Positions 139-58,296 of a stretch of 64,000 bases of DNA are shown here, one piece after another (the stretch's first letter is position 1; each line of letters starts with the position of its first letter). The notes under the pieces were generated by a model that had not been told where the DNA came from, searched no databases, and saw only the letters and a program-made list of their open reading frames with translations. The position numbers and the translations under genes were made by a program. The stretch lies in the NCBI GenBank assembly GCA_025917655.1, contig CP084611.1, positions 806,001 through 870,000 on the forward strand, in the 5' to 3' direction. The DNA comes from Chlorella sorokiniana (Eukaryota; Chlorophyta; Trebouxiophyceae; Chlorellales; Chlorellaceae).

Positions 139-3100
139 TCAGTCTATCTTGAACACCTTCTTCAGCTTCATGACCAGAATCCAGTCGTCCTTGGTCATCT
201 CGTCCCGGAACATCTCCTTGAGCACGTCGATGGACTTGCGCCTGGAGAGCGGGAGGGAAGGGCGGGCAGGCAGGGAAAGGGTTGCACATGACGTAAGCAG
301 GCCAGGGGGACAGGAGGAGGATGGCAATGTCAGCCAGGCTGAGCCAGGAAGCAGGCAGCAGCAGCCGTGCGTGTGCCGCTGGCGCCAGGTAATCGCGCTG
401 GACGCTGCCATTGCAGAGGGTTGCTTGGAGCGCAGCCCCTGAGCTCACGTGATGCGTGAATACAATTCGTCCTTGAAGTCAAAGTGGCGCTCGTACGAGC
501 GAGAGGCCTCCTCCGGCTTGGTGGCCTGAGGAAGGGGAGCCAAAGGGGAACGTAAATGACAGCAGCGGGTGGCCGCCCTGAGGCCACGAGCGGAGCGCGC
601 GCGCGTGCTGCAGCAGGCCGGGAGGCGAGTTGCTGAGCAGCAGCACGCCGGAGCTGCGCGGCCAGGCGCGGTCCCAAAACGCCGCCCAGCCAGGGGCGCA
701 CGCAGCGCTGCCGCCCGCTCAGCAGCCCCACCTCGATCTTCATGGCCACCGCGTCGCCCTTGCGGGCAGTGTCCACCGGCTTGTGCTCCTTCTCCAGGGA
801 CGCGATGCGCCCCAGGTCCACGCCGCCCTGCAGCGCCGCCAGCATGGGAGCCAGCGCGTGTCAGCACAGCACCCAGCCTGCTGACTGCCAGCTGTGGGTC
901 AGGCAGTCCTCGCAGAACATGTGGCGGCGAGGGCTGGCAAGGGTCGTCCCCGTGCCATGCTCCGAGCGGATGCACTGCTGTCGGCCGCTGCCCATCCAGC
1001 ATGGACTGCGGCCCCTGCATCGCTTCCAAGCTGGAGGCGGCCAGGCGTGCACGGAGAGGCGGCGCGCTCACCCTGCTGGGGACGCAGATGGGAGTGCCCA
1101 CTTTGGCAATGCCCTCCACCACCTCCACGCCCAGGATGATGGGGTCCTTCTGGTTGAAGATGCAGGTGGGCAGGATCTGCGGAGCCGGCCAGGGAGGAAG
1201 GGAGGTGAGCGGAGGCAGCGTGGTCACCAAGGCGGGTGAGCGACGCCTGTCGTCTCATGGCACTTGTGGTCTTGCATGTTGCACCACACCGGCCGTGGAC
1301 AGCGGCCCGTGCTGAACAAGCAGGGGTAGGCTGGCGCCCACACAGCAGCCATAGAAACAGTGCAGGTCGCTGCCGCCACCGCCGCCGCACCTTGAGCCTG
1401 CAGGGGAAGACGGCGGTGAGCTTGGCGGCCTCCTGCTCCTCCTCCTTGACCTGCTTGAGGTAGGCTGTGAACTGGTCGAACAGGTGGTAGATGATGTCGG
1501 CGGTGAAGATGCGCACGCCCAGCTGCTCCGCCAGCGCTCCCGCCTCGCGCGTCACTGCGGGAGCACCGCGCGCAGCCGGTTGGGGGAGGTGGGACAGCAG
1601 AAGCGATGGACTCTAGGCAGCAGAAGGCGGAAGGCTGGCTGCCTCTTGCACCGGCCCCCTGGTCTCCGCCCTGGATGCCCCAGTGTCCACCGAAGCAGCG
1701 CGGCCAGCGAGCCCAACCGGCCGTTCTGCACCATCCTGGCCTCCCACCCAGAGAGGGAGCCGAAGCAGCGGCGCTGCCTGCAGCGGGGCGCACCCGGGAC
1801 GTCAAAGGCGAGGATGACGCCGTACTTGCGGTAGCCGCGCTCAATCATGGCGTTGGCGCGCATCACGTCCTTCTTGTTGATGGGGCCGATGTTGATGGAC
1901 GAGACGGGGATCTGGGGGAGGGGAAGTGGGGCGCGGGCGGGGTGCGGGGGGTCATGCCGGAGAGGAGGAAGCTACTTCAGCCGGGTTTGTGAAGCACGGC
2001 AGCCACGTAGGGCAGCCTCCCTGGGCCGGAACCCGCGCTTCAGCGTGAACCCTGGCCTGCCCATATCCAGCCCTGCAGGCCCTCCCACCCCCACCCATCC
2101 ACCTGCACGTCGTCCGAGCGCAGGAACTCCAGCAGCGCCTCCAGGGAGCCCAGAGTGGAGGCCTGCACGCACACGCCCTCGCCTGCGGGGGCAAGCCAGT
2201 GCACACGCTCGCATCGGTTGCCTGCTGACCGCCCGACACAACCCCGCAGCGCAGACACGCTGCCCTCGCTGTGGGGTGTGCCCGGCGCCAGCCCCGCCGC
2301 GGCCTGCTGCGCGCACCCGTCTTGTCCACCGAGGCAAAGATGTCCTGCATGTCCTCCATCACCGCATCCTTGAGGTCCTCCACATCGTCGTCGGTGCCCA
2401 CCTGGGGGGAAGACGGGTGGGGGTGGTGTGTGTGTGTGTGTGTGTTGGAGGGAGGGTGGCGCACGAACCAGCGCGAATCGGGAGGGCGCGGCAAGGCACA
2501 GCTCGTCAGCAGTGGAGCGGGCGCAGACGAATACCAGCAGGGCAAGCCAGGGTCACAGGCTTCAGAGTCGAGGAGGGCGTGCTGGGGAGGGAGGGTTGTG
2601 TGGTGCCACTCACCACATACAGCTGGGTGCCGGCCACCGCCGATTCGAGGTTGTGTGCGGCGATCTTCACGCCCATGGCCGCCCGCAGCTCCTTGTGGTG
2701 CACGTACTGCCCCTTCACCCGGATCTCCTGCGGTGCAAAAGCGGTACGGGCAGCACAGGAGGAGGCAGCAGGGGTGAGGGGTGGGCAAGGGCCGAGTGTG
2801 ATCATACGCACCACGCTGCTGCAGCGAAGCAGAAACTGGGCTTGTAGGCTTGCTTGCACATGAGCTGCAGAGCATGCAACCCGCGGCGTGGGATCATCTG
2901 AGGCCGGGGCACACCCTGAGGGGCTGGGGGGTGAGCAAGGCGCGGATGGTGGTGACGATGGGCCCACCCAGGCCGCACACAACTATCGTGTCGCCCTCCT
3001 TGAGCATGCCTGCAAAGCAACGGAGGCACGAGGGACTGAGAACGGCTGTATGGCCAAGTGATGGACCTGGCTTTGACTCGGTAGAGGCAACAGTGCTGCG

Positions 3101-6100
3101 GCATTAACGCAAGCGCCAGCCAAGCAGCAGTCGCAGCACAGCGCAGCACAGCACAGCACAGCGGCTCCCACCGTTGACTAGCACCACATCGATGGTGGTG
3201 CCCAGGCCCTCAATCTGCTTCACCTCCAGCACCGTGCACTGCAGGCGGCGGCGGGGGCGCAGCGAAGCGCGAGGCGCAAGCTCAGCAGGCGGCAAGGCTC
3301 GGAACACTAGCCAACAGATGATGGCTTCGTGAACAACCCCATCCCTGGCGTTTGCACCCTGCCAGAGAGCGAGTGCATTGCTTTGCCCAAGGGCCCAGCA
3401 ACGTCACTCCACAGCCATGATTAAAGAGCTCGCTGTGGTGCTGCAGCGGGGTTGCCTCACGCCTTGCCTCCCCGCCACCCTGCTGGCCACCTCCCGCCCA
3501 CCTCCAAACCACCAGACTGCTCCCCACTCCCCACCCACCTCCAGGTTGTTCACAAACATGAGGCGCTCAGCCATGAGGCTCTGCGTAAGCTTCACCACCA
3601 GCTGCAGCAGGTCGGGGATGCCTGCAGGGCACACGGGAGGCGCACAGGGACAAGAGCAGGGGCATGTAATCCAGATGCGCAGATGTTCTGGCGTGCGCAC
3701 TAATGGCACTGCACTGCTGTGTGACTGCACGCTCGGCCAGGTGAGTGCGGCACGGCAGCGGCAGCGGGAGGCGCGCCGCGCTGCGGGGCGCACCCTCTCC
3801 GGTGATGGCGGAGGTGGGCACGATGTTGATGAAGGTGCGGGGGTCGCGGTTCTTCCAGTACAGCGCCACGTTCAGGCCCTGCTCGTTCAGCTGGAGCATG
3901 ACCTGCATTGTGTGTGTGGGGGCGGGGGCGGGAGGGAGGTGGGTAACGAACAGTTAATGCAGTTCCTGTCGGCATCCACGAGTACTAGCCTGCGGCGCTG
4001 GCCCCGTCCACGCCTGCCTACAATTTTCCCTCGGCACCCCCGGACACCTGCCAGCACCACCATCATTAGCGTGCCAGCCCCACATCAAAGCAGCCAGCCT
4101 GCTGCGTATGAGTTAGGCGCAGGCCGGTCTGCTTTGTGCATGCACCGCTGGCCGGTCCCCCAACCTCACCCCCACCCCCACACCCCCTCCCGCACCCACG
4201 CGCCTGGTTCAGCCGGTCCTCAAACTCCTTGCGCACGTACTCCTCCTGCCGCCCCAGCGCGTCCTGCACCGGCGAGTTGGCCACGCTGCGCCAGTTGTAC
4301 AGGCGGTCGATCTTGTTCATGGCGATGATGAAGGGCGTCTTGCGCATCTTCAGCAGGTTGATGGACTCGATGGTCTGCGGGGAAGGGGTTGATGGGCGGG
4401 TGGGTGGATGGGTGGGTGGGTGGGTAGGTTGGTGGAGCGCCCATAACGTGTCGTACACAGGCTGCCCACACGCGGCAGCGAGAACGACCTCGCGCTGCTC
4501 AGCACCCGGCCTGCCTGCCCCCTGCCCCTCGCCCCCCCAAACACACACACACTCTTATACAGAGAGACACACACAGCGTCCTTCAGCGGGGCCCACCTGC
4601 TGCTCAAGGCCGTGCATGAGGTCCACCACCAGGATGGCGATGTCGCACAGGCCGGAGCCGCGTGATCGCAGGTTGCTGCGGGTGGGCGGGCAACGGCGGG
4701 GCAGGCAGAGGGGAGGTGAGCGTACCGCGACACCAAATGTTGCACCAGCTCTGCGCTGCAGGCCACCTGTAGGCAGCAGGCCGTGTCCCACCAGCCCGTG
4801 CCCCCTAGTCCCTAGCAGGAGACTGAGCCTCGCCCGCCTGCTGCCTTTTGTGGCCACGAGCCACCTGGCTCCAGGCTGGCTCAGGCTGCGGGCAGGGCTG
4901 ACCTGAAGGACTCGTGGCCGGGGTGTCGATGACAAGCAGGCCGGGCAGCTTCAGGTCGAACTGGCGCCCCTTGCGCAGCTCCTCTGTGCGCATCTCCACC
5001 GCGGCTGCGGGCGGGGGAAAACAGGCAGAGGGGGCAGCGGGAGGGATGAGCAGCATGCGGCGATGCCAGCGAGCAGGGAGGGGCAAGCTGGCGCACGGTG
5101 CACTGCGCGGCAGCCACTCTGGTGCCCCGGCAAGCGGCGGTCCCAGCCAGGGATGGTCAGCCCAGACGGTGGAACGGTCCAGGAGGCGCCGCACTGCCCC
5201 CGCCTTGCTCCACCCCACCCCGGCCTGCTTGGCGGGCGCGCACATGCGGGGATGTAGGTGGCACCGATCTGCTGCGTGATGCCGCCCGCCTCGCCGTCCT
5301 GGACGTTGGTGCGCCGGATGTTGTCCAAGATCTTGGTCTTGCCTGAGGGACAAGGGCCGCATGGCGGTGTGGGTGTGTGAGGGGGACTGTTGAGGGTGGG
5401 AAACTTGGGCCACAGAGAGGGGCCAGCTTGTTTGGTTACTTGGGAAGGGGGAGGAGGGCGCGCACACGCGCACACTGCAAAAAAGGGGCAAACGCATGCG
5501 GCAACACATCCGCCCTTTGCGGTGAACAGCTGCGCTGCCCAGGCGCCCCACGCGGCAGCCTCCCGCTGCGCCCACCCGTGTCCACGTGGCCCAGGATGCA
5601 GCAGATGGGCGAGCGCAGGTCCTTGGGGTCGCGCGCCGCCAGCGCCTGCTGCAGCTTGGCCTCGCGCCGCTCGCGGGCCGCCGCCAGCCGCGCCTCGCGC
5701 TCGTCCTCGGAGTCGCTGTCCTCCTCGGAAGAAGAGTAGTCGGAGGAATCTGGAAAAAAGGAGAAAAGGCAGAGGTCAAAAGAGGAGGGAGGGCAATGAT
5801 GAGAACGCGGCAAAGACTGCAGGAGCAATGCGGGAAGCGAGCCATGGCAACGAATCGGGCCAAGCCCGAAGGTGGGCAAGCGCGGATTGGGGCTGAAAGG
5901 GGAATGCAAGCAAGGGGGAGCATGCGGGCACACGGAGCAGCGTTGCCAGGCCGCCCCAGCCACGCACCTTCATCCGAGCTGTCCTCGTCGCTGCTGCTGC
6001 CCTCGTCGCTGCTGCCCGACTCGTCACTCTCGTCCTCCTCACTGCTGCCCTCCTCGTCAGACTCTGTCTCCTCGTCCACCGCCGCCTTGGCCGCAGCAAC

Positions 6101-9100
6101 CGCCGCGTCCGCCGCCTTGACTGCCGCCGCTGCCTTGGCGCTGGCGGCCGCCGCGACGGAAGCCTTGCCGTTGGCGACCGCGGGCGCCTTCTGCTGCTGC
6201 TGCTCCTCCTCCTCCTCCTCGTCCGCCTGCGGCTGCCCCGGCAGCTTGATGTCGTCCACATCCATCGCCTCCCAGTCATCCGCTGCATCCTCCCAGCTGT
6301 CTGCCAGGCCGGAGCCCTCAGCCAGGGGAGCCTCCTCCGCAGCTGCCTCTGCCGGCGCAGGCGCCGCCTCCGCGGGCGCCTCGGGCGCCGCCTCCTGGGC
6401 GGCCTGCTCCGCGGGGGGCTCCCGCCGCTGCCTCGGCCGTCTGCTGGTCCGTCTCTTCCTGCTGCTGCTCCGCCTCCTGCTTCTTTTTCTGCGGCTTCTT
6501 CTTGCTGCTGTACACCGGCTTCCTCTTGGGCACTGCGCGCACGGCGGCGGGGCAGCAGCGCGCTTGCTCGGCGCACAAGTGGCCAGACGGAGCCCCAGGG
6601 TGCCAAGGAAGCCGTGCGCTGGGCACCCCGCCGTGGCAGGCATCCGGCGGTGCTGGCACATATTCAGCCCTCCCCGTATTTCAGCCAGGCTGCAGCTTGG
6701 GGATGCTGGGCATACCAAGGAGCGCTCCTGCGCCCCCCACACACACACACACACCCCACACCCACACCCACACACTTTCCACCCCACACACAGATACCAA
6801 ACATGGATACACATGCGCCTGCCAGCCGTCTGGCAGCCCCACACACACCGCACTGGCATCGACTCACGCTCGTCGGGGTTCAGGCCCGCCTGGCGCAGGA
6901 ACTGCTGCGCGGCGCGCGCCCGCCGCTCCGCCTCCTCCTTGGCCTTGCCCGTCAGCAGCTTGCCCTCCCGCTTCAGCTGCTCTCTGCGCTCCGCCTTCTC
7001 ACGCTTCCTGCAGGGGGTGCATGCGGGCAGGTGAGCCGCAACGTGCGCGGCGGCAACAACACGCGGCAGCAGAGTGCGACTTCCCCAAACCCCCACTCCT
7101 GCGCCAATGAATCAAAAAAAGTCAATCAGGTGCAGCCCTCACTTGCGCTCCGCCTCCTCCTGCTTCCGCCGCTCCTCCTCCTCGCGCTGCCGCTCCTCCT
7201 CCTCCTCCTACAACAACAGTTGGGGGACAGCGTTGGAAGCCTGACTGCGAGGGCCCGGCTTGCAGACGCGGCGTGCTCCAGGGACAAGGTGCCCCACACT
7301 GACAGGGTGGGTGCAATGGTGGAGCGTGGGTGCTTCCTTAAGCGGCGCCCACCTTCAGTCGCTGCTCCTCCGCCAGCCGCTCCGCCTCCTCCTGCGCCTT
7401 GCGCTGCGCCTCCAGCGCCTCCTGCATGCGCCGCACAGCTGCCGACACCTTGCCGCCCTTCTTGCCCTTGGCAGCGGCCGCCGCCGCCGCCGCCGCCGCC
7501 GCTTCGCCCTCGCCCTCGTCGCCGCCCTCCTCTGTCGCTGCCGCCTTTTTGGCCTTCTCCTTGGCTTTCTTCTTCGCCTTCCTCTTGGCTGCCGCTGACA
7601 TTTCCTTGTCGCCGCCCTCCTCTTCTGCACCCTCCTCGCCCTCGGGCGTGTCTGGCCGATCCGCGGGCGCCGCCGCAGGCGCCGCCGACTGCTGCGGTGA
7701 AGCCGCTGGCGGCTGCTCTGTTGCCGGGGCACCTCCCAGCTCGGCAAGCAGGGCATCTAGATCCTGTACCCACGTGGAAGGCATCGCACACAAAATGCTG
7801 ATGACTGCAGAACGAAACACCTGGCAGGCAAGCTGCACGCGGCATGCCAGCTCAGCCGCATGCTGCAGAGCGACAGCAGGCAGGTGAGCGCCCCTCCAGC
7901 CCACCTCCTCATCATCCTCCTTGGCAGCCCCGCCCTTGCCCTTCTTCTTCTTCTTGTCCTTCTTGCCGGCAGAGGCGGCTGCAGGCGACACCTCAGCAGT
8001 GGCGGCAGCAGGCTCCGCGGGCTTGGTGCCCTCCAGCTCTGCCAGCAGCGCATCCAGGTCCTCGTCATCGTCTGCAGCGGCCGCCTTCCCCTTCTTCTTG
8101 TCCTTCTTGCCCTTCTTGCCTGCGCAGCAGCAGCCGGCGAGAGCAGCGCAGCACGTGTCGCATGCGCTGCTGGCAGGCACGACGTGCGCCTTGTCACAGT
8201 GCACACCCGGCACACACGGGCACTGAGGCAGAGTGAGGAGTGGGCACAAGGGGCACGCTCGTGGTGTGTGGACCCGCCCGCCCCCCCAACAAACAACTGC
8301 ACCAGGGCAACCCCATGCACCTGAAGAGGGGGCAGGCTCGGATGCCGGCTCCTCTTCACCACCGCCCAGCGCTGCAAACAGAGAGTCCGCTTCCGCCAGG
8401 ATCGCCTTCTTGTCCTTCTTCTTCTTCTTCTTATCCTTCGGCTCAGGCTCAGGCTCGGGCTCCTCCTCTGCAGCAGCAACAGCAGGTAATAACGCGCTAG
8501 CAGCTCCAATCTCATGCCTTTCCTCTGAGAACCTGAACCCTGCTACTGTGCAAGAGGCAGTTGAAAGAAAAACAGTGCGCCATCCCCGCAGCGCCCACCG
8601 TCGTCGCCACCGCCAAGCGCCGCAAACAGCGAGTCAGCTTCTGCCAGGATTGCCTTCTTGTCCTTCTTCTTCTTGTCCTTGGGCTTGGGGGTGGGCTCAG
8701 GCTCGAGCTCCTCCTCTTCCTCTGCCACCTCCTCCTCCTCCTCCTCTGCCACCTCCTCATCCTCCACCGAGAGCGCTGCAAACACTGTGCTCACGTCCGG
8801 CGTCGCCTTCTTCTTCTTCTTGTCCTTCTTGAGCTTGGCGGCCGGCTGCTGCTGCTCCTCCTCTTCCTCCTCCTCTGCCACCTCGCCGCTGCCCAGAGCA
8901 GCAAAGAGACTGTCGGTGTCCACCTTGCCCTTCTTCTTTGCCTTCTTCTCCTTCTTGCTAGCAGAGGCACCAAAAATGGCGCCCTGCAGGGCAGCACAAA
9001 GACCAGGCCCACGGGTTGAGAAGGGCAGCAAAGTTGAAGCCAGCAGGCACACAGGTCTTGCACAGCTGCAGATTCAGTAGACATTGCCAGCGCTAGCTGA

Positions 9101-9968
9101 TACACGCTGCTGAATCCACCAACTCCCTCCATTACCTCTGGGGGCTCTTCAGGACACTCCTCACCCACTTCGGCATCGTCTGGCAGCACCACCAGCACAC
9201 CGTCTGCAGCAACAGCAGCGCTGGCATGCAGGTCAAGGAGGAACAGTAAACGTGCTGCCAGCAAACCACAGCATCGGTGCATGAGCATGCGGCCTGGCTG
9301 GCATTGCATCAGCCAGAGCAGGCAGTTGCAAGCACTGGCTGCAGCAAGCTGCGCAGCAAGCAACGGCGGGTGCCGCCGCCCCCACCTGGCTCCGACACCC
9401 AGCCGCACTCGTGAGCGCTGCACAGCATGCCAAACGACTCCACGCCGCGCAGCACCGCCTGCTCAATCTTCATGCCGCTGCGCGTGGTGCAGCCCACCGG
9501 CTGCGAGCGAGGAAGCGCCAGGTGTTGCATTTACCTTCACAAACCTCCTGCTCAGGTGCAAAGCAGGCTGCCACAGCTGCCACCACTGGGTGGTTCGTCC
9601 CCGCCGCCGGTCACCCACCGAGCGACAGGCGGTCGCCGCCCCATGTGCACCCAACACAGCTTTCCACAACTCACCGCAAACACCACCTTCATGCCCTCCT
9701 CCACGTTCTGCGCATTGGTCACCACCTTGACGGTGGCCACGCCGCCCGCGTCCACCTGGCACACGCGCAGGCGGTCGGCCTTGGGGTGCGGCGCCACGCT
9801 GACCACCTCTGCGATCCGCAGCACGGGGGGGCCTGCACCGGGCGCATGGAGGGGTGCGGCGGCAGGCAAAACGTGACACGAGTGAACGGGGGCTGCAAGG
9901 AGGCCGCCCAGCCGCAGCGCCAACCGCCCATCTCAAGATCGGCACCCACCGTGGAAGTCGGCTCCTCC

Positions 9969-10000
<32 letters not shown>

Positions 10001-10641
10001 GCCATCACCGTTCAGCAGCGCAAATACACTGCCGCCAGCAGGCACAGACTTCTTCTTCTTCCCGCCCTTTTGCAGGGTCTGGTTGACCGGCGAGTCCTCG
10101 TCCTCGCCATCCTCCGCAGCAGGCGACAGCTCCACCTTGGGCTCATCATCGTCAGAGTCAAAGGCTGCCGCCTTCTTGTTCTTCTTGTCCTTCTTATTCT
10201 TTTTGTCCTTCTTCTTGACAGCTGCAGGATGGGCAGTGAGCAGCACGGCGTTGTCGCGACAGCTGGCTGGCAGCGGCGGCGGCGGTGGCAGCGAAAGGGT
10301 GAAAAGGAAGCAAGGCACCCGCCCATGTCGGCGATCATAAGCTGCCTTGAATGTCAGAAGTGTCGTGTGCCAGCCCGTGGAGTGACTAGGTAACTGCTGG
10401 AGAGAGGCTGGCAGCATGCAGTCATGCAGGTATGGCTGGGCCGCTGGTGCGACAGTTGTGAATACGAGCCGGCATTTGTATATAACACGCTGCTTTTAAA
10501 GGCTGCCTGGCGCATGCAGGGCACACCTGCTGCGGCGGCCTCTTCCTCCGCAGGCTCCTTGAGCGCCTTTAGCTCTCCATCTTCATCCAGCTCAAAATCT
10601 TTTTCCCAGTCGTCGTTTCCCCTCCTCCCCTTCTTCCCCAT
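139..10641 (-). CDS. eIF5B: Translation initiation factor eIF5B (IF2-type GTPase), with extra N-terminal domain
   Basis: Cytosolic GTPase that places initiator Met-tRNA and joins the 60S subunit during start-codon selection. The gene reads leftward through more than 20 exons. It starts at ATG 10641 ([19 protein letters not shown]) and ends LKKVFKID-stop at 139. The N-terminal half (10.2-6.0 kb) is Lys/Glu-rich with repeated LFAALGGG-like motifs. The GTPase core is complete: G1 GHVDTG|KT split by an intron (about 5600/5340), [11 protein letters not shown] in switch 1, G3 near 4925, G4 NKID near 4300, G5 SAITGEG near 3810. Exons for domains II-IV follow, including [16 protein letters not shown] near 1890 and [15 protein letters not shown] near 220. 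Odd: an OB-fold tRNA-binding domain lies in the N-terminal part (see 9136-9832). One-base frame shifts occur at the G run 6413-6418 and near 4918, where DTPGHESF is restored only with one more base. Identity is certain; exact exon borders are not. Confidence 0.95.
2426..2445. repeat. (GT)n microsatellite in an eIF5B intron
   Basis: About ten GT units on the + strand, lying between two eIF5B coding exons. Confidence 0.9.
4390..4432. repeat. G-rich GGGT/GGAT minisatellite in an eIF5B intron
   Basis: Repeated short GGGTGG-type units with at least six GGG runs on the + (non-template) strand, inside an intron just upstream (in gene sense) of the NKID exon. It has G-quadruplex potential in the DNA. 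Confidence 0.7.
8361..8925 (-). repeat. Tandem coding repeats in eIF5B N-terminal region
   Basis: Four successive units end in a LFAALGGG-like motif preceded by a Lys-rich block. The leftmost two (8361-8425 and 8608-8680) share [20 protein letters not shown]; diverged units lie near 8760-8790 ([11 protein letters not shown]) and 8885-8925 ([13 protein letters not shown]). Two further shorter relatives, [11 protein letters not shown] and [11 protein letters not shown], occur in exons near 8040 and 7740. This looks like serial exon duplication within the gene. Confidence 0.8.
9136..9832 (-). other. Bacterial-type tRNA-binding OB-fold domain encoded inside eIF5B
   Basis: Three consecutive exons (9675-9832, 9386-9500, 9136-9203) encode one domain of about 110 residues. 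Diagnostic pieces are [53 protein letters not shown] and [16 protein letters not shown]. This is the PheT/YtpR-like form of the tRNA-binding domain, also related to the EMAP II/Arc1p C-terminal domain. Splice phases run without a break from the eIF5B start exon (10527-10641), through the Lys/Glu-rich exon (about 9945-10221), through these exons and into the next poly-Lys exon at about 8990. They are therefore exons of the same gene, not a neighbour. Canonical eIF5B has no such domain at its N-terminus as far as I know. Confidence 0.88.
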
Positions 10642-10865: not shown

Positions 10866-13800
10866 ATGTTAGATCTTCAACGTGATTTGCATGCCCTGGG
10901 CGTGCGAGTACAGGATGGTTGGTTGGCCGCCTGCTTGGGGCACCTGCAAACCGTCGACCCTCGCTTTAGCAATGGCAGTGCTAATCAGAAGGCAAAGATA
11001 GTGCTGCAACAGCTGCTGCAGAGCGATTTGAACCTTTGCGGCGCACCAGCACTGCCGCAGGGCGTGCAGGTGGGCCAATTTTCGCTCAATGAATGTTGGT
11101 GGGGGAAGCTAGGCCTCCAAGGCGTGACGCACTCAACCTGTAATCCATGCGAACGTCTGCTGTGACTCCGCTGCCGGGAGCGTCGCTATCCTGTTCAGGG
11201 CTTACACGACACCATTCTGCCGGACAAGCTGCTGTTGCAAGTGGATGAGGTGGCCAACATTGGTGTGGCAATCCGTGAGCGTTACACAGGCAATGACAAC
11301 GGCTCCCGCTGCCTCAAGCTGCTGCTTACCGATGGTGGGTGCTGAATGCTAGGTCCTTACAAACAAAGTTTCTGTGCCCCCTGCGCCGATTTCCTGGCGC
11401 GCAAAGCACTGTGCCACGCAGAAAGCTCAACAGTGCTTTCCAAGTACCCACCTGCAGGCTGTCAGCAAGTGGCGGCGATGGAGTATCGGCCCACCCCTGC
11501 CTTGCATTCTGCCATGCCTGCGGGGACCAAGCTTGTAGTGCATGGTGCAGCAGTACGATGCGGCATCCTGCTGCTGACTCCGCAGTGCTGTGCAGTGCTT
11601 GGAGGCCAGGTGCCACAGTTGGAGCAGGCGCGGCAGCGCATGGTGGCGCATTGGTCGCAGCCAGCAGGCAAGCTGAAGTGCAGGCCTTGCTAGTGCTGCG
11701 AGTTCCTCTAACGGCCATGCTGACTCACCCTTGTTGCGCTGTTTGCAGTTGGGCGCCGTGGACCGCCGCCCACCATGCAGCAAGCTTTGGCAGAGGCTAC
11801 GCGGTCAGCATGGGCTGGACCTGGCGAGATGGGCGTTCGTCCGCCTCAGCAGCAGCTCTTGCAAGGGCCAGCGGCAAGTTCTCAACAGCAGCAGCATCAA
11901 CAAGCAGGGCAGCGACCCTCGCAAATGCCTACCCAGCTAATGTCAGGGCTGCACCAGCCGCAGCGACAGATGCAGCCAACATCGCTTGCACCAACTCAAC
12001 AGATTGATGGTTTTGCCAGGCAGGAGCAGCAGCGGCAAGCACAGGCAGCCCCGCCCCTCTCTGGACCAGCACAGCCTCTCCAGCAGCACAATGGAAACGT
12101 GTCTCAGGGACCCCAGAGGCGCAACCGCCTCATCCTCCCCAAGCCTCCTTCCCAGGCCAACGCAGCACCATTGCCTGCACAACAGTCGGCGCCAGTGGCA
12201 GCAGTACCATCCGATTTTGCCTTTGTGGAGCACACGCAGCAGCAGCAACGGCAGCCACAGTATCAATTGCAGCCTGCGGTACATCTGCCGCAGCCAGGGG
12301 CTGCACCAATGGCCCCGCAGCGCGTGCAGCCTGAGCCACCATTCGCAGCTGGTGGCGGCGTGGCAGCTGGGACAGACGACGACCCGATTTGCCTGATTGA
12401 CGATGACGCTGCTGGAGGCCTTGCTGACGTGAAGATGGAGCCTGCGGTTGACGGGGCGGTTTGGGAGGCTCCTGCAGGTGCTTCAAGCAGACGTTGTAAA
12501 ACCCATCGCTGCCGTGGCAAGACCTTGCATCGCATGTTTGTTGCAAGCCGTGACCCACGTTGCCTTTCATGCGCCCTGCAGACGACACGGCGCCGGATGT
12601 GCACCTGGAGCCCTGGGAGCAGGGTTTCTATGGGGATGAGCAGGACGGGTGGGCCGACTACGGCGATGGTCAGCTGGAGCAGGGGCAGGATGAGGCGTTG
12701 CAGGATGAGGAGGGGGTGCCCAGCATGACGGCGAGGTCCTGCCCGACGCTCCCGGGAGGGGTCGGTCCCTGTTGCTCGAGGCGCGGCCGGCGCAAACAGC
12801 AATGTCGGCGAGGCTGGAGGCAAGCAGGCAGCGGCAGCTGCCGACGATGCTGCGGCAGGCAGCGAGGACGGTTGGGGAGACGAGGATGAGGAGGGTGGCT
12901 TGGAGCTCCAGCAGGAGCAGAAGCTGCCAGCCAGGGTTCGCTCGGACTTGCTGGCTGCACCTGCAGACCCTGAACGTTGCAGCCAGGGGCCAGCCGCTGA
13001 GCACCGGCCACGCCGAGCGCCGGCAGCAGACGGCGCTGCTCACAGACCAAGATGTTCTGCAGGCCGCCTGAGCGGTGCAAAGCCAGAACATGTGCCTGTG
13101 GCCCCACAGCAGCAGCAGCAACAGCAGCAAGTCCAACAGCAGCCTGAGGTGGCCAGTGTGCCGCAGCTGGCACCGCCAGAGCCTAGCTTGTTGAGCGTAG
13201 CTCCCTCCTTGGCTGAAGTGCTATTTTCAGCCCCTCAGCCCACGCCCTCCCCTTTGCCACGGTCGGCTCATCAAGCTTCAGTCGGAGGCAGCACCGACAG
13301 ACAAGATGCGCGGTCCAGCCCCGTCCCTCCTGACGGCAGCGGCCTGGGGCGACCGGCTGCGCAGCAGGGCCTTGCCGTGGCTCCCGCTTTGCTGCCGCGC
13401 ATGGAGCAGCTGGCAGGAGCCACAGGAGCAGTTTCGTCTGCGTCTGCATGTGCTGACGAGGAGATGCCGTCATTCGACCTGCTTCCTGATCTCAGCCCTG
13501 CCAAGAGCAAGCTGGCAGGCAGTCCCGATGAGCCCTTCATCTACCTCTTGCAGCTGAACCAGCGTGCGGCGGCTGCAGGTTGTCCCGCGCACAGCGCTGC
13601 TATTGCCTGTCAGTGAGCTGTGCGCCTGCTGATCCTGTAGCGTGTCGCTGTGCAGGCCCCGACGAATTCCCTCTGACAGCCACCATCTTTGGCACGATAC
13701 GCCAGTTCCTGGGCAAGATGCAGTTCCAGGACCCCACCACCCAGGAAGCAAGGGTGAGGTCTGGGACAGGGGCCTGGCCTGCAACACATGCAGCCCCACC

Positions 13801-23629: not shown

Positions 23630-24266
23630 CAGCCACGCCTCACCTTTGCTCCGCTTCCCATCTGCCCCCTTGCTCCCAGTTTGTCTGCTGTCGTGCTTTT
23701 GTGTATCTGCACTCTTTGTATGTCTTTTGACCCTCCACTGTACCAACAAGCTCTCCCCATGATTCGCGATTCATGTGCATCCGTTGCGTGCATGCCTTAC
23801 ACACGCAAAAGTCAAGGACCGTATGTAAAGAGGTGCACCTGGCAGCCGGAACCCAGGAATCAAACATGACGCGGCGCCAAGAGGTCAAATGCCAGAGCAT
23901 AGCAAGGCAGGTAAAATACAGAGTCAGTGCATGCAGGCAAATGCAAGGGAAGCGAATGCAGAATTGCAAAACAGAGCAGGGAATTGAGAAGGGCCCTGCC
24001 TGGGTGAGGAGCCGCCTCCCTGCAGCCGAGCAACAGGAGCGGATGGGCAAGGCGGATGCGGACGGTGATGTGAGGCGGCACCAGGCAGCCAGGCAGGGCT
24101 GCTACTAAGTTGTGTTGCTTGCTGGCTGGCTGGATACTGGGTTGGCAGCGAGGCTCAGCCACCCGGGCAGGGCCAACAGGGGAGGGAAGCACTAGGGGAA
24201 GTGCAGCGGGCGCGCCGCCTCACGGAAGTGAAACCACGCCGCACCGCTGCAGATGCTGGCATGCCC
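23630..24266. other. Convergent 3' intergenic region
   Basis: 3' UTRs of the small membrane protein gene and importin alpha; no further gene seen. Confidence 0.45.
23824..23828 (+). terminator. UGUAA polyadenylation signal for the small membrane protein gene
   Basis: TGTAA 195 bases after the stop codon. On the opposite strand a TTACA at 23797-23801 may serve importin alpha, so the two 3' ends may touch or overlap. Confidence 0.4.
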
Positions 24267-27200
24267 TCACTGCTGCATGCCGAAGTTGAAACCGCCTGCG
24301 GGGGCTGCCGCGCCAAAGCCCTGCGGCGCGCCAAAGGCATAGGTTCCTGCGGGGGATACGGCATGCACAGCCCTGTGAGTGACAAACTGACGAGGCGATG
24401 CAACCCCACCCCTCGCGGCCGCCGCAGGCTTCTTCTCTGCCCCAGCCGCACAGGCAAGGCCTCTTGCACCAGCAGCAGCAGCAGGCGCTCTCCCCATGAT
24501 GCGCGGGCTCACCGCCCTCCACCGCGGGCGCCAGGTTCTCCTCCTCGCCGTCTTCCACGTCGAAGTACGTCTCCAGGATGGACACCGCCTTCTCGTAGAT
24601 GTCTTCGTTGCTGTGGTTCTGCATGGATGGAACCCGGGGGCGCGCGTGGCGGCGCCGCACGGTGAGGGGCCAGCACAGGGGAAGGCGCCGCCCTCCAGGC
24701 ATGGAGGCCTTGGCTGGCTGGCTTGGTCGCCTGTCAACGCACTCACGGCCAGCGCCTGTTGCACCGATGCTTCCTCCCTGCCGCACTGGTGCCGCCTCCT
24801 GCTGCACTGGTGCCTCCTGCTGCACTGGTGTACCCCCACTGCACTGGTCTGCTCCCCACTGCACTGGTGCTGGGCGGCCCACCTGCAGGTCCTCGATCTT
24901 GTCCAGCCCCTCCGCCTCGTCCACCAGCTGCGCAAAGGGGTTGCTGGCCGACGCGCCGCCCAGCTCCTTCTCCGCCTCGCCCACCTGCGCGCAGCGCCGG
25001 GCGGCGGGGATCGGGCGGCAGCCACACCGCCGCACAAGGCCGCCTCCTCACGCCCACCCTGCCAGGTGGTGCCCCCCACCCCCCCAGACTTGCGCTGACA
25101 TGTCGGGCCATGCCAGCGCCCTTGGCCCCTGCTGCCAGCCCTGCCTGCCTCCCACACGGGTTTCCCACCTTCAGGATGTTCTCCAGGCCCTCCAGCGCCA
25201 CCGTGACGATGCGGGCGTCGGAGCAGGACAGCAGGTCGCAGAGCGGCTTGATGGCGCCCTGGCTGACCAGGTACTTGATCTGCTCGTTGGTGCCGCCGCT
25301 GCGCGGGGGGGGCGCGGGGGTTGCCGCGGCCAGGTCAGGGCACCCGGCGCAGAGCCACCGGGAGAAAGGGACAGGGCACCCGGCGCAGAGCCCACGGGGC
25401 AAAGGGGTGCAGGCGGGATGCCTTCGCAGCAAGAGCAGAGCGGCAGGTCCAAGGCAGCTTCCTGAGGCCAGCAAAGGGCAGACCTGCATCCCTGCATGCG
25501 GCACCCGGCTGGTGCGCGGCGCAGGGCGGCCCCACCTGGTGGCGTTGGAGATGGCCCAGGCCGCCTCCTTCTTGATGTCGAACTCCGCGGTGGCCAGGAG
25601 GTGGATGAGGGGGGACGATGCCGGCGTCCACCACCGTCTGGATCTGCTCCTTGGTGCCCGCCGTGATGTTGGAGATGGTCCAGCACGCCTCCTTCTTGAT
25701 GCTCTTCTTGTGGCTGGTGGTCAGCAGGTTCAGCAGGCAGGGCAGCGCGCCGCAGTTGATGATGATCTGCGGGCGGGTCGGTGCAAGTGTATGCGCCGGT
25801 GTCAGCGCCACGGCACAAGAACATCACGTGGATGCAGCCAACCACAGGCAGCTGTTGCCAAGCAGCGTTAGTTGACGGGGAAAGGGGGTATCATACCTGC
25901 GTCTGCAGGTCATCGCCGGTCACAATGTTGCCCACAGTACGCAGCGCGGGCACCAGCACGCTTGGCGACTGATGCCTGCGAGGTCGGCAGGGCGGCAGCG
26001 GCAACCTGGTCAGGCGGCTGAGCACGGCCACGCAACAAAGACAAGCAGGCTTGCAGCCAATGCAACCACTGCCTCATATGAGCAGCATAGTTGGCAAACG
26101 CTGACATTGATGACCTGGCCCCGACCTGGCCCCAGACATGGCCAGGGCCTTCACCACGACTAGCAGCACCCAGCCCTGCCTGCCCCAGCTAGCAGCAGCC
26201 CCCCACTCACAGCAGCAGCTCCACGAGGCGGCGGCAGACCCCGAGTTGATGACCTCCTGGATCTTGTCGTTGGTGCCGTCGGAGAGGTAGGAGAGCGCCC
26301 AGCAGGCGTCCGTCAGCACCTCCTCATCCTGGCTGTGGATGAGGCGGGCCAGAGCGGGCAGCGCAGCCTTGACCTGCGGGAAGTCTGGCTGCGGCTTGCC
26401 GCGGCAGAAGTTGGACAGCGTCCACGTCGCGTTGCGCAGCATCGACATCTTAGTGTTGTCCTGCGGGAGCGGGAGTTGGGAGGGAGTCGAGTCAGGCCAC
26501 AGAGTGAGACAGGGACGAAACGTTGACCTGAGGGGGCACTGGCCACCCCGTTTCACAGTCCATGCATGCATGTGCATTCTGCAACCACGAATACCAGCAG
26601 CATTCCAGGCAAACACAAGTATCGCCCAATCGCCACTGCCCACCTTGAGCTGCTCCATGAGCGGCGCCAGTGCGCCGTTGGAGAGCACCAGGTCGCGGCA
26701 GCGGGGCGAGTCGCCCGCAATGTTCCCTAGCGCCCACACCGCCTGCTCGCGCACGTCGTCGATGGGGGAGTGCAGCAGCTGGACGAAGATGGGCACCGCC
26801 CCGCGTCGATCACCACCTTGGTGTGCTCGCTGGTGCCCGACGCGACGTTGGTGAGGGCCCAGGCCGCCTCAAACTGCAGCTGCGGCACGTCGTTGCGCTG
26901 CAGGAACTGCACAAACCGAGGGATCACGTTTTGGGCGATGACCTCCTCGATAGGTGGGTTGCGCTCTGCAGGCATAGGCAAAGCAAGGTGTGTGTGAGCA
27001 GGGGTGGGTTGGAAATGTTGGATGCCTGCTGCGAACAGCGCGGAGCCTGGCATGCGACGGCCCTCGGTTTGTGCAGCATAGCAAACGCCCACCAATGGAA
27101 AGCAGCTTGCGGAATTGTGTGGTAGCCTCAAGCTGGGCCTGAGGATCCTCAGACCACACGCCTTGCACCATGGTAGGCAGGCTTTCCAGCTGCTGGGGGA

Positions 27201-52997: not shown

Positions 52998-55900
52998 TCA
53001 GAGCTTGCCGCCGGTCTGAGCCGCAACCTCCGCAGCAAAGTCCACCTCCTTCTTCTGCATAACGACAAGGAGGATTCCAGGTTGTGTGGGCGCCACAGAA
53101 AGCAATACCTATCGCAAGTTGTGGCGCTCAGGGAGGGCTGCATGCAGCTGGGCACCAGGCCATGCCAAGGGCTGTGCTGTAGCATACGCCAGTCCAGTCC
53201 AGGGGCTCACCTCGATGCCCTCGCCCAGCACGAACCGCGAAAAGCGGCGAACCTGGATGTTCTCGCCGATGGACGCAATCTGCTCCTTGATGTGCTCCTG
53301 CACCCAACCAGCCAGCCAGACGGGCAGCGCAAATCAGCGACACTTGCCCGCGAGAGATTCACATACACACCGCCGCATACTGCCGAAACGGACAGTAATG
53401 CAAGACACGAATGGAACTGCCAGCTGGTTCCCGGCCCGTCCCTTCTCCGCTGCCACCGCCCGACACGGCCCAGCCCACCTGCACCGTCTTGTTGGTGTCC
53501 TTGATGAACTGCTGGTCCAGGAGCGACATCTCCTTGGCGATCTTGTCCACGCGGCCCTGCACAATCTTCTCGCTGCAGAGGCAACAGCGGGCAGGAGAGC
53601 GACAGGGCATGGGTGTCAGCGTGCGGCTCAGTGGGTGGGGGTTGATGGTAGAATGGTTTCGTGGACAGCAGGCGTGTAGGTACCGATGAGTGGTAATGGC
53701 ATTGGGAAGCTGCAAAGCCCGCACCGGATGGCCTCGGGCTTGCTCTTCAGGTCCTCCTTCTCCATCTCAATCGCCTTCTCCTTTGCCAGCACCTCGGCGG
53801 GCACGTCGCTGGAGCTGACGTAGCGCACGTCCGCACAGGCCGCAATCTGAACGTCATGGAGCGGGACAGCAGCAGCAGCTGAGCACGAGAGTGTTGGGAG
53901 CAGCATGCGTGCCTTGCCTGCCTCCTGCTGCACGACGCCGGCCATCAGCCCTAGCTGCACACACTGGCCAAGCACCGCAAGCCCACCCACCTGCATGGCC
54001 ATGTCGTTCACAAGCTCCCGGAACTTCTCGCCGCGTGCAACAAAGTCGGTCTCGCAGTTGACCTCCACCAGCACACCCAGGCGGGAGCCAGCGTGGATGT
54101 AAGCACCCACAGCGCCCTCGGCGGCCACGCGGCCAGCCTTCTTGTCAGCGGAGGCCAGGCCCTTCTTGCGCAGGAACTCGGAGGCAGCCTCGATGTCGCC
54201 GTTGCACTCTACGGAGGCAGTCACCCAAGAGAACCAGTCAGCAGCAGTATGCTGGGCAGGTGGCGCTGAGGAGAGAAGGAGACACGGTGCATCAAACAGG
54301 TGCCGAGCCACGGCAGCAGCTTCCCACCAGCCAGCGCCTTCTTGCAGTCCATCATGCCAGCGCCGCTCTTGTCACGCAGCTCCTTGACCAGCTTGGGGCT
54401 GACAGCCACAGCGGGCTTGGCCTCCGCCTTCGCCTCCTCGGCGGCGGGCTTGGGCTCGGCGTCAGCCTTCTTTGCAGCAGCCTCCTGTGGCGACAACGCG
54501 GCAGAGGTAGCACAAGTGAGGGGCATGCAGGAACGCCGAGTGTTGCGACACCTGGGACACAATGCGGCATCGTCTCCGCTGGCACAGCGCGCGTGGATAC
54601 CTGCATGGCCTTGGTTTGTGCCTCCACATCAGCGGCCAGGTCAGCCTTGGCAACCTCGATGCCCTCGCCAAGCACGAAGCGGTCAAAGCGGCGGATCTGG
54701 ATGTTCTCGCCAATGGACGCAATGGCCTCCTTGACCACCTCTGCAGCAGAGACATGTGCAGAAAGCGACTTTTATCAAGAAAGAACAAGTTAAAGGCATG
54801 TGCACTGGTGCTGTCATGGGCCATACAGGTTCCCTGGCCATCGTGCCAGCTCACCAGCAACGGTCTTGCCGCTGTCCTTGATGTACGGCTGCTCCAGCAG
54901 CGCCATGGTCTTGGCAATCTTGTCCACGCGGCCCTGCACAATTTTCTCGCTGCAGGGTGGAACGGGACAAGAGCGCACCATCAGCTGGATGCACAGATGG
55001 ATGGCGCAGAGCAGACGGCGGGCAAGCATGCGTGCCCCTGCCGGCAGGCCCCCGCCCCCAAACGCACCGGATGGCCTCGGGCTTGCTCTTGATGTCCTCC
55101 TTCTCCATCTCAATCGCCTTCTCCTTCTCCAGCACCTCGGCGGGCACGTCGGACGCCGACACCACAGTCACCTCGGGGCATGCGGCAATCTGCGCTTGCA
55201 GTGAGGGCGCAACACAGTGAACACAAGAGCATGGCCAGCCTGCACCGGTCGGCGTCGGTGGGTGTTCTCCCGATGCAGACAGGCTGGCCGCCCATTGCAG
55301 TCCCAGAACAAGAATCAGCACCGCCACCGAGAAGGGAAGCCCCAGCCCACCCACCTGCATGGCCATGTCGTTCACAAGCTCCTGGAACTTCTCGCCGCGT
55401 GCAACAAAGTCGGTTTCACAGTTGACCTCCACCAGCACACCCAGGCGGGAGCCGGCGTGGATGTAGGACCAGACAGCGCCCTCGGCGGCCACGCGGCCAG
55501 CCTTCTTGTCAGCGGAGGCCAGGCCCTTCTTGCGCAGGAACTGCAGGGCAAGGACAGCAGTGAGATGCCATGAACAGGCGAGCCGGGGCACAGCGGGATG
55601 GTACTGCCAGCACCCCACCAGTATACGCGCCCCCACAAACCCACGCTCTCTCTCCCATGCAAACACTCCCGCCCACCTCCTTGGCCTTCTCCAGGTCGCC
55701 CTCGCACTCGGCCAGCGCCTTCTTGCAGTCCATCATGCCGGCGCCGGTGGCCTCCCGCAGCTCCTTGACCAGCGCAGCGGAGATGCCACCCGCAGCCGCA
55801 GGCTTGGCCTCGGCCTTCTTGGCAGGCTCGGCAGCCTTCTCCTCCACCGGGCGGCGGCTGCTGCTGCCGGGGCAGCCACGGGGCCTCCTCCACGGCAGGG

Positions 55901-58296
55901 GCAGCAGCAGGGGCAGGCGCCTCGGCGGCCTGCTCCTGCTTGGCAGCCTTCTTCTCCTTCTTGGCAGGCTGCACAGACCAGGGCGGCACGCAGTGACTCA
56001 AAGGAGTGTGGAACGAAACAGAGTCCAGCAACAATAACCAGACCCACTGCGTGCTCAAAAGCGCGACATCTACCAAACCGGAAAGTGAAACTTTTGGAAC
56101 AGGCTTTCTATGCCTGCCTGCTTTCCTGCCTGCCTGCCTTCCTGTTGGTGTACGTGCGCCCAGGCCTGTGCACTGCTTGGCATTACAGTGCCTGGGCGCA
56201 CGTACACCTCCGGAAGGCAGCCCCGGAGGCAGGCAACAGGCGGCAGCAAAGCAGGATGGAGACGAGAAACCAATGAACGGGCGGCAGCAGAAACAAACGG
56301 TTCTTTCGTTGCACTGCACGGTCAAAGCATTTGCACAAAAACACTATAAAAGCGGGCAAGCTCTTAGGAGCCCCGAAAAGCCCGAAGCGACAAGAAAAGG
56401 GGTCGCCATGGGGGCTTCGCTGCCTGCTGCATTGCTGACGTCTGGCAGCGGGCGCGGCAGGCGCCTAGGCAGCACCCACCGCGGCCTTGAACTGGTCTGC
56501 GGAGACGCCCAGGCGCGCCAGCTTCATGGCCAGCACGCCCGAGCCCTCGGGCAGGTCGGCAGTCACTGCCACGCCAGCGGTGGACAGCTCCTTCTCCTGC
56601 GCAGGAGTGGCGGCGGCGGCCAACGGCGCATGAGGAGGGGCCTTTCGCGACTGGGAAGCCAGGCCCAATGAGCTGTGGCCCTCTGCCCTGCCTGCAGGGC
56701 GAGCACTTGCAGCCCTGCGAGCCCCACCTGCGCAATCTCGGCGGCAGAGCGCTGGGACAGGGAGACCTTGTCGCCGCGCACCGACACCACCACCACCTCC
56801 ACCTCGTCACCCTCAGACAGGGGGCCGGCGCCCTCCACGCGGCGCTGCTCGCGCTCGTGCAGCAGGCCGGAGAAGCCCTCGGCAATCTGCGGAGCAGCGA
56901 CCAAAGACGGGTGAGCTGGAGGGGCACACCAGCCTGACAAGGAGACAAGGGCACCCGGAAGCGACCACCTCCAGCTCCAGCGGAGCCTGTTCTCAGGCGC
57001 GCCTCACCTCCACAAAGACGCCAAAGGCCGCAGAGCCCACAACCTTGCCCTTGATCACGTCGCCGGCCGACACGGGGCGGCCGGGCGCGCGGAGCGCTTC
57101 TGCTGCTTGGCCGCGCGCGCCTGCTGCTTCAGCTGCGGCCGCTCGCCGCTCTCAGGTCGGCGTCGGGGCGGGGGCGGCGCCGTCCTCGGGGATCATGGTC
57201 ACCGCAAACTTGCCGCGCTCCTGGTCAATGTTGATGACGCGCACGCGCACGTCCTGGGCCACGGACACCACGTCGCTCACGTTGTGCACAAAGCCGGTGG
57301 AGATCTGCGGTTGCGGGTTGCAGGGGAGACGTCAGGGGAGTGGGGCGGGAGGGAGCGGCATGGGTTGGCAACGAGGGTTGCAGGGGGACGTCAGGAAGCA
57401 GGCAGACAGGAAGCGGCATGGGTTGGCAACAAGTCAGTGCCTGGGGGCGGCCCGGCTCATGGGCCGGAGCAGCGGGCAGCGGTCGAGCGAGGCGCAGCGT
57501 CCCGCACCTGAGAGATGTGCAGCAGGCCGTCGGTGTTGACGCCGATGTTGACAAAGGCGCCAAAGTCGCGGATGGACACGATGGCGCCCTCGTACTCCTT
57601 GCCCACCTCCAGGTCAGCCACACGCAGGGTGCGGGCAGGGCCAGGGCCTGCGGAGAGGACGCATGTCGGAAAGATGCCCAGGATGCACTTGGGAGTGCAC
57701 GTGGGTGCTGCATGCACTGCCCGGCCAAGCTGCGGTGCAGTGCGGCTGGGTGGGACTCACCCTTCTGGGGTCGGCCTTGCCGGCGCTGCCTCGGCTGCTC
57801 AGCAGCGGGGCCTCCGCGGCCGCCGCGGGCACCTCGGGCGCTGCCTCCGTGTCGGCGGCAGCGACGGCCGGGCGCACAGCCATCCGCTGCGCGCGAATGG
57901 CGCCATGAGACTTCACACTGCACGGTCGAGGAGTGATACAAAGCGGGTCAGACAGGCAGCCGGGTGCTGCTGCTGGAGGGTGCTGCCGGAGATGCAAGAC
58001 TGAAGGCGAGGCCTCCTCAACCAGCGCCAGGTTGCTGTGTCCAAGCTGGCAACTGTGAACGCAAAATGTGGCTCCTGACTACGCTCTGAAAGGCAGAGCG
58101 GTGGGCCTTGGCCTGGCTGCATGGCTATGCCCCTCACTTGCGGCTCTGGACGCCCGCCACGCGGGTTGTGGACAGCGCAGACGCCTGCAAGAGTAACAAT
58201 TAGGGTGAATGGTCTGGTCGGGGCGTGGCACGCCGCCCGAAGTTGTGGCTATGGCGCATTGCCCGCATTGCATACCTGCAAGGTGATAGGCGCCAT
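52998..58296 (-). CDS. PETs: Plastid polyprotein of EF-Ts (PETs): two S1 domains plus two EF-Ts modules
   Basis: Chloroplast translation polyprotein: PSRP-7 (S1 RNA-binding domains) fused to elongation factor Ts, the exchange factor for EF-Tu. It starts at ATG 58296 with a seven-codon exon (MAPITLQ) and a Ser/Arg/Ala-rich transit peptide over two more exons. S1 domain 1: [40 protein letters not shown]1 domain 2: [22 protein letters not shown]-Ts module 1 (about 55.8-54.6 kb) and module 2 (54.5-53.0 kb) each contain [18 protein letters not shown]-type helices, [68 protein letters not shown] and [13 protein letters not shown]. It ends [12 protein letters not shown] at 52998. One-base shifts are needed near G runs 57170-57174, 57083-57085 and 55849-55851. 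The intron about 55977-56480 may be optional (see findings). Confidence 0.92.
53981..54178 (-). repeat. EF-Ts module 2 copy of a 198-nt near-identical block
   Basis: Matches 55345-55542 with about nine differences by my count and no gaps, including ten bases around the splice donor. It encodes the FLRKKGLAS to MAMQV part of EF-Ts. Confidence 0.85.
55345..55542 (-). repeat. EF-Ts module 1 copy of a 198-nt near-identical block
   Basis: Partner of 53981-54178; same length and same intron position. Confidence 0.85.
56147..56208 (-). promoter_or_regulatory. Long hairpin with UGUAA in its loop, inside the PETs intron
   Basis: Arms 56147-56165 and 56190-56208 are perfect 19-nt reverse complements, with a weaker outer stem (56135-56142 with 56212-56219). 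The 24-nt loop, read on the gene strand, contains TGTAA (56187-56183). It lies between the S1 exons and the EF-Ts exons. Confidence 0.7.

Follow-up and report, generated by a model that had tools for sequence, protein, structure and literature searches.

Layout of the eIF5B gene

The window, that is the whole 64-kb stretch of DNA analyzed in this study, carries on its minus strand the gene for the initiation GTPase eIF5B, which runs from the ATG at 10641 to the stop codon at 139 and comprises approximately 30 exons that were placed by hand. In this hand-made model, the marks for exons 21 and 23 stop one base short of a GT, and the acceptor position of exon 28 is provisional. The eIF5B exons referred to by position below are the following:

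10527..10641, minus strand: exon 1, ATG at 10641-10639, donor CAG/GTGTGC
9950..10221, minus strand: exon 2, Lys-rich, then FALL and an acidic tract; strong donor at 9950, phase 0, ACG/GTGGGT, 8.28 bits
8599..8983, minus strand: exon 6, repeats rich in Lys and Glu (SLFAALG); entered in phase 0, with both exon 5 and the exon-2 donor 9950 joining in frame
5576..5749, minus strand: exon 13, G1 motif (LGHVDTG)
4204..4374, minus strand: exon 17, NKIDRLY (G4)
1554-1391 and 1176-1072, minus strand: exons 26 and 27, covering the last part of domain III and the first part of domain IV (GTP_EFTU_D4)
139..241, minus strand: last exon, ending in KLKKVFKID and the stop codon

Both the GTPase core and the C-terminal domains of eIF5B are found in this gene, with the scores taken piecewise because the reading frame is broken in exon 12 and in exon 15. 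Searched against the PDB, the core exons hit eIF5B chains (best E-value 6.4e-30 for an 83-aa stretch, with 60% identity to an eIF5B chain across 83 columns), and they contain the Pfam families GTP_EFTU, IF-2, and GTP_EFTU_D4, the first G-domain piece by itself staying below the cut-off (24.2 bits vs. 26.5). When exons 1 to 11 are joined at the junctions of the original prediction, a stop-free translation of 698 aa is obtained. One of these junctions had been set at about 8993 and has to be corrected, since exon 6 begins at 8983.

The two frame breaks are located at approximately 6412-6425 in exon 12 and at 4920-4923 within the DTPGHES motif of exon 15 (both minus strand), each beside a G/C run, and are probably sequence errors. 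If they were genuine, the whole locus might be a decaying eIF5B pseudogene and the fusion described below functionless. The many exons with mostly good splice signals, the well-kept core (the 60% identity mentioned above), and the position of both breaks beside G/C runs, which is typical of sequencing errors, make such decay very improbable.

Two further peculiarities of the gene were observed. The exon-17 donor that is in frame with exon 18 would be a GC donor (CAG/GCGCGT, 4202-4204, minus strand), so that a GC-AG intron is possible at this position. In addition, exon 7 (8321-8467) and exon 6 (approximately 8599-8690, both minus strand) share a near-identical unit, which suggests a duplication in the eIF5B tail.

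Elsewhere in the window, the minus strand contains two near-identical stretches in tandem (53628-56343), which we take to be EF-Ts-like and to resemble the plastid PETs polyprotein, as well as what are presumably importin-alpha-like ARM repeats (24220-26868). By the style of its sequence, the window appears to come from a GC-rich green alga.

A tRNA-binding OB domain encoded by exons 3 to 5

Exons 3 to 5, located between the Lys-rich exon 2 and the Lys/Glu-rich exon 6, encode an OB domain:

9675..9832, minus strand: exon 3, first half of the OB domain, 45.1 bits by itself
9386..9500, minus strand: exon 4, continuation of the OB domain, 26.3 bits by itself
9136..9203, minus strand: exon 5, end of the domain; an alternative donor gives exon end 9169 in the same phase 0

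Together these exons encode 113 aa, and two GT-AG introns interrupt the domain. In the 698-aa N-terminal part, tRNA_bind (PF01588) is the sole Pfam family reported (62.6 bits, E-value 3.8e-17, cut-off 27, residues 135-236). Scanned alone, the 113-aa domain reaches 67.5 bits against the same cut-off of 27 and covers profile positions 1-95 of 96, i.e., the full domain. It also scores 104 bits with the NCBIfam model pheT_bact and 97.5 bits with YtpR. The eIF5B gene hence contains a complete PF01588 domain of the PheT/YtpR type, just as had been proposed for these three exons.

As a control for chance, 20 trinucleotide-shuffled windows were scored with a profile of three PheT rows that excluded the window itself. 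While the best score per shuffled window was between 3.2 and 10.5 bits, exons 3 and 4 obtained the 45.1 and 26.3 bits given above, and their matches adjoin on the profile (positions 2-49, then 49-81); chance similarity is thereby ruled out. The alignment to PheT is gapless at the junction of exons 3 and 4 and shows a one-residue length difference near the junction of exons 4 and 5. Since introns interrupt a domain that aligns with almost no gaps, the domain is a feature of a spliced, eukaryotic gene; bacterial contamination is ruled out by these introns together with the eIF5B exons flanking the domain on both sides. A search for a second copy of the domain within the 64-kb window gave no significant match (next best E-value 0.72). 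The insertion of the OB domain in the eIF5B gene of this one genome is real, well-formed, and probably functional.

Subtype and relatives of the domain

The original prediction had regarded the domain as bacterial-like rather than EMAP II-like, and the scores bear this out. Next to pheT_bact and YtpR, TapR reached 69.2 bits, whereas the MetRS-type models gave at most 20.8 bits, and the best PDB chain was a bacterial PheRS beta subunit (E-value 2.9e-22), compared to an E-value of 0.13 for EMAPII. The label "EMAPII-like" is ruled out by these values, and the domain does not fall into the EMAPII/Arc1p class. It is also not a full PheT, since the 104 bits stay far below the TIGR00472 cut-off of 402.65 and cover only profile positions 47-150 of 798. 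With YtpR (NF045760), the 97.5 bits are slightly below the cut-off of 100 for the 113 aa scanned, in which the first part of YtpR is absent and the match spans profile positions 85-184 of 185.

In sequence, the OB domain found close to the N-terminal end of the bacterial PheRS beta subunit (PheT, TIGR00472) is the closest known relative, with 52% identity to one PheT row and the motif GMLCS in common. Differently from PheT, only the OB domain is present here, it is cut by two introns, and its carrier gene is eIF5B rather than PheRS. Arc1p, AIMP1 (EMAPII), and Trypanosoma MCP1 likewise combine a PF01588 domain with a Lys-rich eukaryotic carrier; in contrast to these, the domain described here is of the bacterial subtype and sits on an initiation GTPase instead of a synthetase cofactor. 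PF01588 domains are known to occur either as free-standing proteins or in fusion with synthetases and the cofactors of these (PMC11286949), and EMAPII is mentioned in synthetases (PMC3359775). The GTPase core, domains III and IV, and the Lys/Glu-rich N-terminal tail are shared with canonical eIF5B, aIF5B, and IF2. The N-terminal regions of eIF5B are described as extended and variable in length and sequence, and the excerpt of that source mentions no OB domain in them (PMC4342817). In line with the original prediction, which knew of no such case, no description of a fusion of eIF5B with a PF01588 domain was found in open-licence full-text literature.

Searches of bacterial genomes with the domain alone yielded matches in 134 of 142, 97 of 101, 62 of 99, 58 of 59, and 58 of 60 genomes of five sets, the last of which partly overlaps the first, with best scores of 88.7, 73.7, 91.2, 84.2, and 89.8 bits, respectively. 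In the other four sets and in five further searched bacterial genomes, the top matches lie mostly within open frames of approximately 800 aa, i.e., PheT, while the set with 62 of 99 genomes has many weaker matches in frames that are short (110-210 aa in most cases). For these five bacterial genomes, the best domain matches showed 49-58% identity, and the top score overall was 95.2 bits. Among the bacterial genomes searched, no group stands out; the plastid origin considered in the original prediction may apply. A PheT-seeded scan of genome_contigs returned 594 stretches, 570 of them confirmed, and the best 80 of these 570 are mostly gammaproteobacterial, a list that is biased by the PheT-row seeding and by the restriction to the best 80 and that says nothing firm on origin.

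Scans of viral_contigs with the domain, with an eIF5B G1 stretch, and with a two-row eIF5B alignment yielded no relative, and the same scan with the PheT-seeded alignment gave seven loci. One contig filed as viral (L084, 6001-6279) has a 112-aa open frame with a tRNA-binding domain that is PheT-like (47.3 bits) and shares a ten-residue stretch with the domain of the eIF5B gene.

The domain as a probable part of the eIF5B transcription unit

The frame of the domain has an in-frame stop upstream at 9935, with no ATG from there to the domain, and past exon 5 it stays open as far as 8791. Because the three exons have neither an ATG of their own nor a nearby stop, they need the flanking eIF5B exons. 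The junction between exons 3 and 4 is in phase 0, the one between exons 4 and 5 in phase 1, and the one between exons 5 and 6 in phase 0, the latter from either exon-5 donor (9136 or 9169). Upstream of the domain, only exons 1 and 2 of eIF5B could be placed on the same strand. The absence of an own start, the open frame after exon 5, the phase of the junction to exon 6, and the position of exons 1 and 2 make it most likely that the OB domain is part of the eIF5B transcription unit.

On the plus strand, an RMI1-like gene (approximately 10866-11670; RMI1_N_C, 91.9 bits) is arranged head to head with eIF5B, the two start codons being about 225 bases apart.

A separate gene for the domain is unlikely, because it would lack a start codon of its own and because the domain splices in frame into exon 6. 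The same holds for the idea that the domain is an independent gene, or the relic of one, located within a long intron of eIF5B, so that mature eIF5B would lack it. The strong donor 9950, which bypasses the three exons in frame, would fit such an arrangement, but the missing in-frame start codon, the lack of a stop soon past exon 5, the introns within the domain, the conservation of most of its pocket residues (see below), and an exon-5 end that matches the phase of exon 6 make it rather improbable.

The domain had further been claimed to reside in the same protein as the GTPase core. That it lies in the same gene is upheld by its strand, the missing start codon, and the downstream frame; its inclusion in the protein is less settled and is weakened by the strong donor 9950, which favors the domain-skipping frame. 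Inclusion of the domain in the mature eIF5B protein appears likely.

The junction between exons 2 and 3

Splice phases had been reported as compatible from the ATG exon through to the Lys-rich region. This holds true from exon 3 onward but not between exons 2 and 3, where the strong donor 9950 is out of phase. Two short features are relevant for this junction:

9941..9950, minus strand: two donors overlapping with an offset of four bases, GGTGGGTGCC; an exon end at 9950 gives the frame without the domain, one at 9946 the frame with it
9825..9831, minus strand: seven-C run at the start of exon 3, the length of which sets which donor is in phase

Donors were scored with a matrix derived from 25 reference donors of the eIF5B gene, for which the left-out scores ranged from -1.39 (exon-5 donor GAG/GTAATG) to 10.84 bits, and acceptors with a matrix from 27 acceptors (scores 2.6 to 13.4). 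Near the end of exon 2, the donor 9950 with its 8.28 bits is the only strong one; it is in phase 0, whereas exon 3 needs phase 1. The phase-1 donor 9946 (TGG/GTGCCG) scores -2.79 bits, which is lower than all 25 left-out reference scores and is equaled or exceeded by 73% of 521 GT sites. A moderate donor at 10009 (4.47 bits) is also in phase 1 and thus in phase with exon 3. The acceptor of exon 3 at 9832 (5.69 bits) scores lower than that of an alternative exon start at 9892 (8.87 bits), which is in the same phase. At the other end, the exon-5 donor 9136 has the minimum score among the 25 reference donors, with the in-phase substitute 9169 at 6.98 bits.

Splicing from 9950 directly to exon 6 keeps the frame, and the translation of exons 1, 2, and 6 is stop-free and gives eIF5B without the domain. 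Splicing from 9950 to exon 3 and from 9946 to exon 6 both run into stops. The intron from 9950 to 8983 would be 966 bases long, compared to 131-335 bases for 24 other introns, while the intron up to 9832 would have 117 bases from 9950 and 113 bases from 9946, which is a bit short against the same range. We think that exon 2 extends to about 9950, because the acidic tract that follows its FALL repeat also trails other repeats in the tail; use of donor 10009 would drop this tract.

Our leading account of the phase conflict is that the seven-C run has been given a wrong length in the assembly. Exon 2 would then end at 9950, and the domain would form a phase-0 cassette between phase-0 introns that is always included. 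Such an error is plausible because the eIF5B gene has two other frame breaks, both beside G/C runs and one of them inside DTPGHES, and it would leave the strong donor 9950 in use. On the other hand, the seven C could be correct, and the 117-base intron from 9950 to 9832 falls below the range of the other introns. We consider this account close to evenly balanced between true and false.

Alternative splicing comes next. The domain would then be an alternative cassette, with a domain-free isoform from 9950 to exon 6 and a domain-bearing one from 9946 or possibly 10009 to exon 3. The frames agree with this, as joining 9950 to exon 6 and joining 9946 or 10009 to exon 3 all leave the frame open, while the two converse combinations meet stops, and tandem donors four bases apart are a known class of alternative splicing (PMC4267661). 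The same source describes splicing at four-base tandem sites as primarily noise. Moreover, donor 9946 is very weak, skipping requires the outlying 966-base intron, and 10009 would delete an acidic tract resembling part of the repeated unit. We regard two isoforms as possible, yet unlikely.

Pocket residues and predicted tRNA binding

PF01588 domains bind the 3′ CA end of tRNA, and Arc1p shows a similar 3′ end binding plus contacts to the tRNA body (PMC11286949). The pocket residues reported in that study for Trbp111 and Arc1p were mapped onto the domain in this analysis with constant spacing. Six of the eight positions are kept in kind, namely D19, R20, L69, R70, S74, and M77, which correspond to E32, K33, I77, F78 (R274 in Arc1p), S82, and M85 of Trbp111; the positions of R274, S278, and M281 of Arc1p are among those kept. 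The two differences are E65 (K73 in Trbp111, K269 in Arc1p) and A67 (R75 in Trbp111, V271 in Arc1p), with R75 being the most important residue in Trbp111 (PMC11286949).

The comparison set consisted of 109 non-identical bacterial sequences, taken from 121 among 122 bacterial loci, which were fetched by similarity and are PheT-type by design. All 109 sequences share D19, R70, and M77, and 108 have S74. At position 20, 71 of them carry Lys and 38 Arg, and Ala at position 67 is found in 82 of 109 as it is here. Position 65, which is Glu in the eIF5B gene, is Lys in 89, Arg in nine, and Glu in three of the 109 sequences. The net charge of the domain, at -7, speaks rather against tRNA binding; the 111 relatives in the alignment average -4.4, with values from -8 to 4.

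In PMC12021450, deacylation by MCP1 is reported to require the Lys that corresponds to position 65, and the inactive MCP2 to have Glu at that position and Gly in place of the Arg. The domain in the eIF5B gene differs from MCP1 in having Glu instead of this Lys. As this is the situation in inactive MCP2, we predict from the residue pattern that the domain would bind tRNA without deacylase activity.

Possible implications for translation initiation

That the protein may hold tRNA "at both ends" had been suggested previously. This idea has to be refined, since the CCA end of Met-tRNAi is bound by domain IV of eIF5B, so that both sites would address the same 3′ CA end (PMC11286949; PMC4236685) and would compete or hand over. 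Since two 3′-end pockets cannot share one tRNA end simultaneously, hand-over or enrichment of tRNA is likelier. The other suggested roles, recruitment of aminoacyl-tRNA synthetases or replacement of an Arc1p-like cofactor, are speculative.

The best explanation, which we regard as reasonably probable, is that an OB cassette of the PheT/YtpR type was inserted in the eIF5B tail and gives a second tRNA 3′-end pocket when included. Exons 3 to 5 (113 aa) would have entered the N-terminal tail between two Lys/Glu-rich exons with F-A-A/L-L repeats, and an eIF5B translated from an mRNA with this cassette would gain a pocket for the tRNA 3′ CA end besides domain IV, perhaps in an isoform-dependent manner. 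Several hundred probably flexible residues would tether this pocket to the GTPase core. Most likely, it would either enrich (initiator) tRNA in the vicinity of eIF5B or hold the CCA end briefly before its capture by domain IV or after its release from there. The domain, its exon structure, its position in the eIF5B gene, and most of the pocket residues are seen directly in the sequence, whereas inclusion in the mature mRNA, tRNA binding, and a role in initiation are inferred. A more elaborate version, in which a working second pocket acts in cis with domain IV and the tandem donor toggles it, so that splicing would tune the tRNA hand-over at start-codon commitment, is distinctly unlikely.

If the proposed fusion is confirmed, a general binder of the tRNA 3′-end would be placed on the very factor by which Met-tRNAi is checked immediately ahead of subunit joining. 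Nature would thereby have provided a way to test if this step of initiation is limited by the supply of tRNA or by the hand-over of the CCA end, and it would mean that a bacterial synthetase module has been recruited into the eukaryotic initiation machinery.
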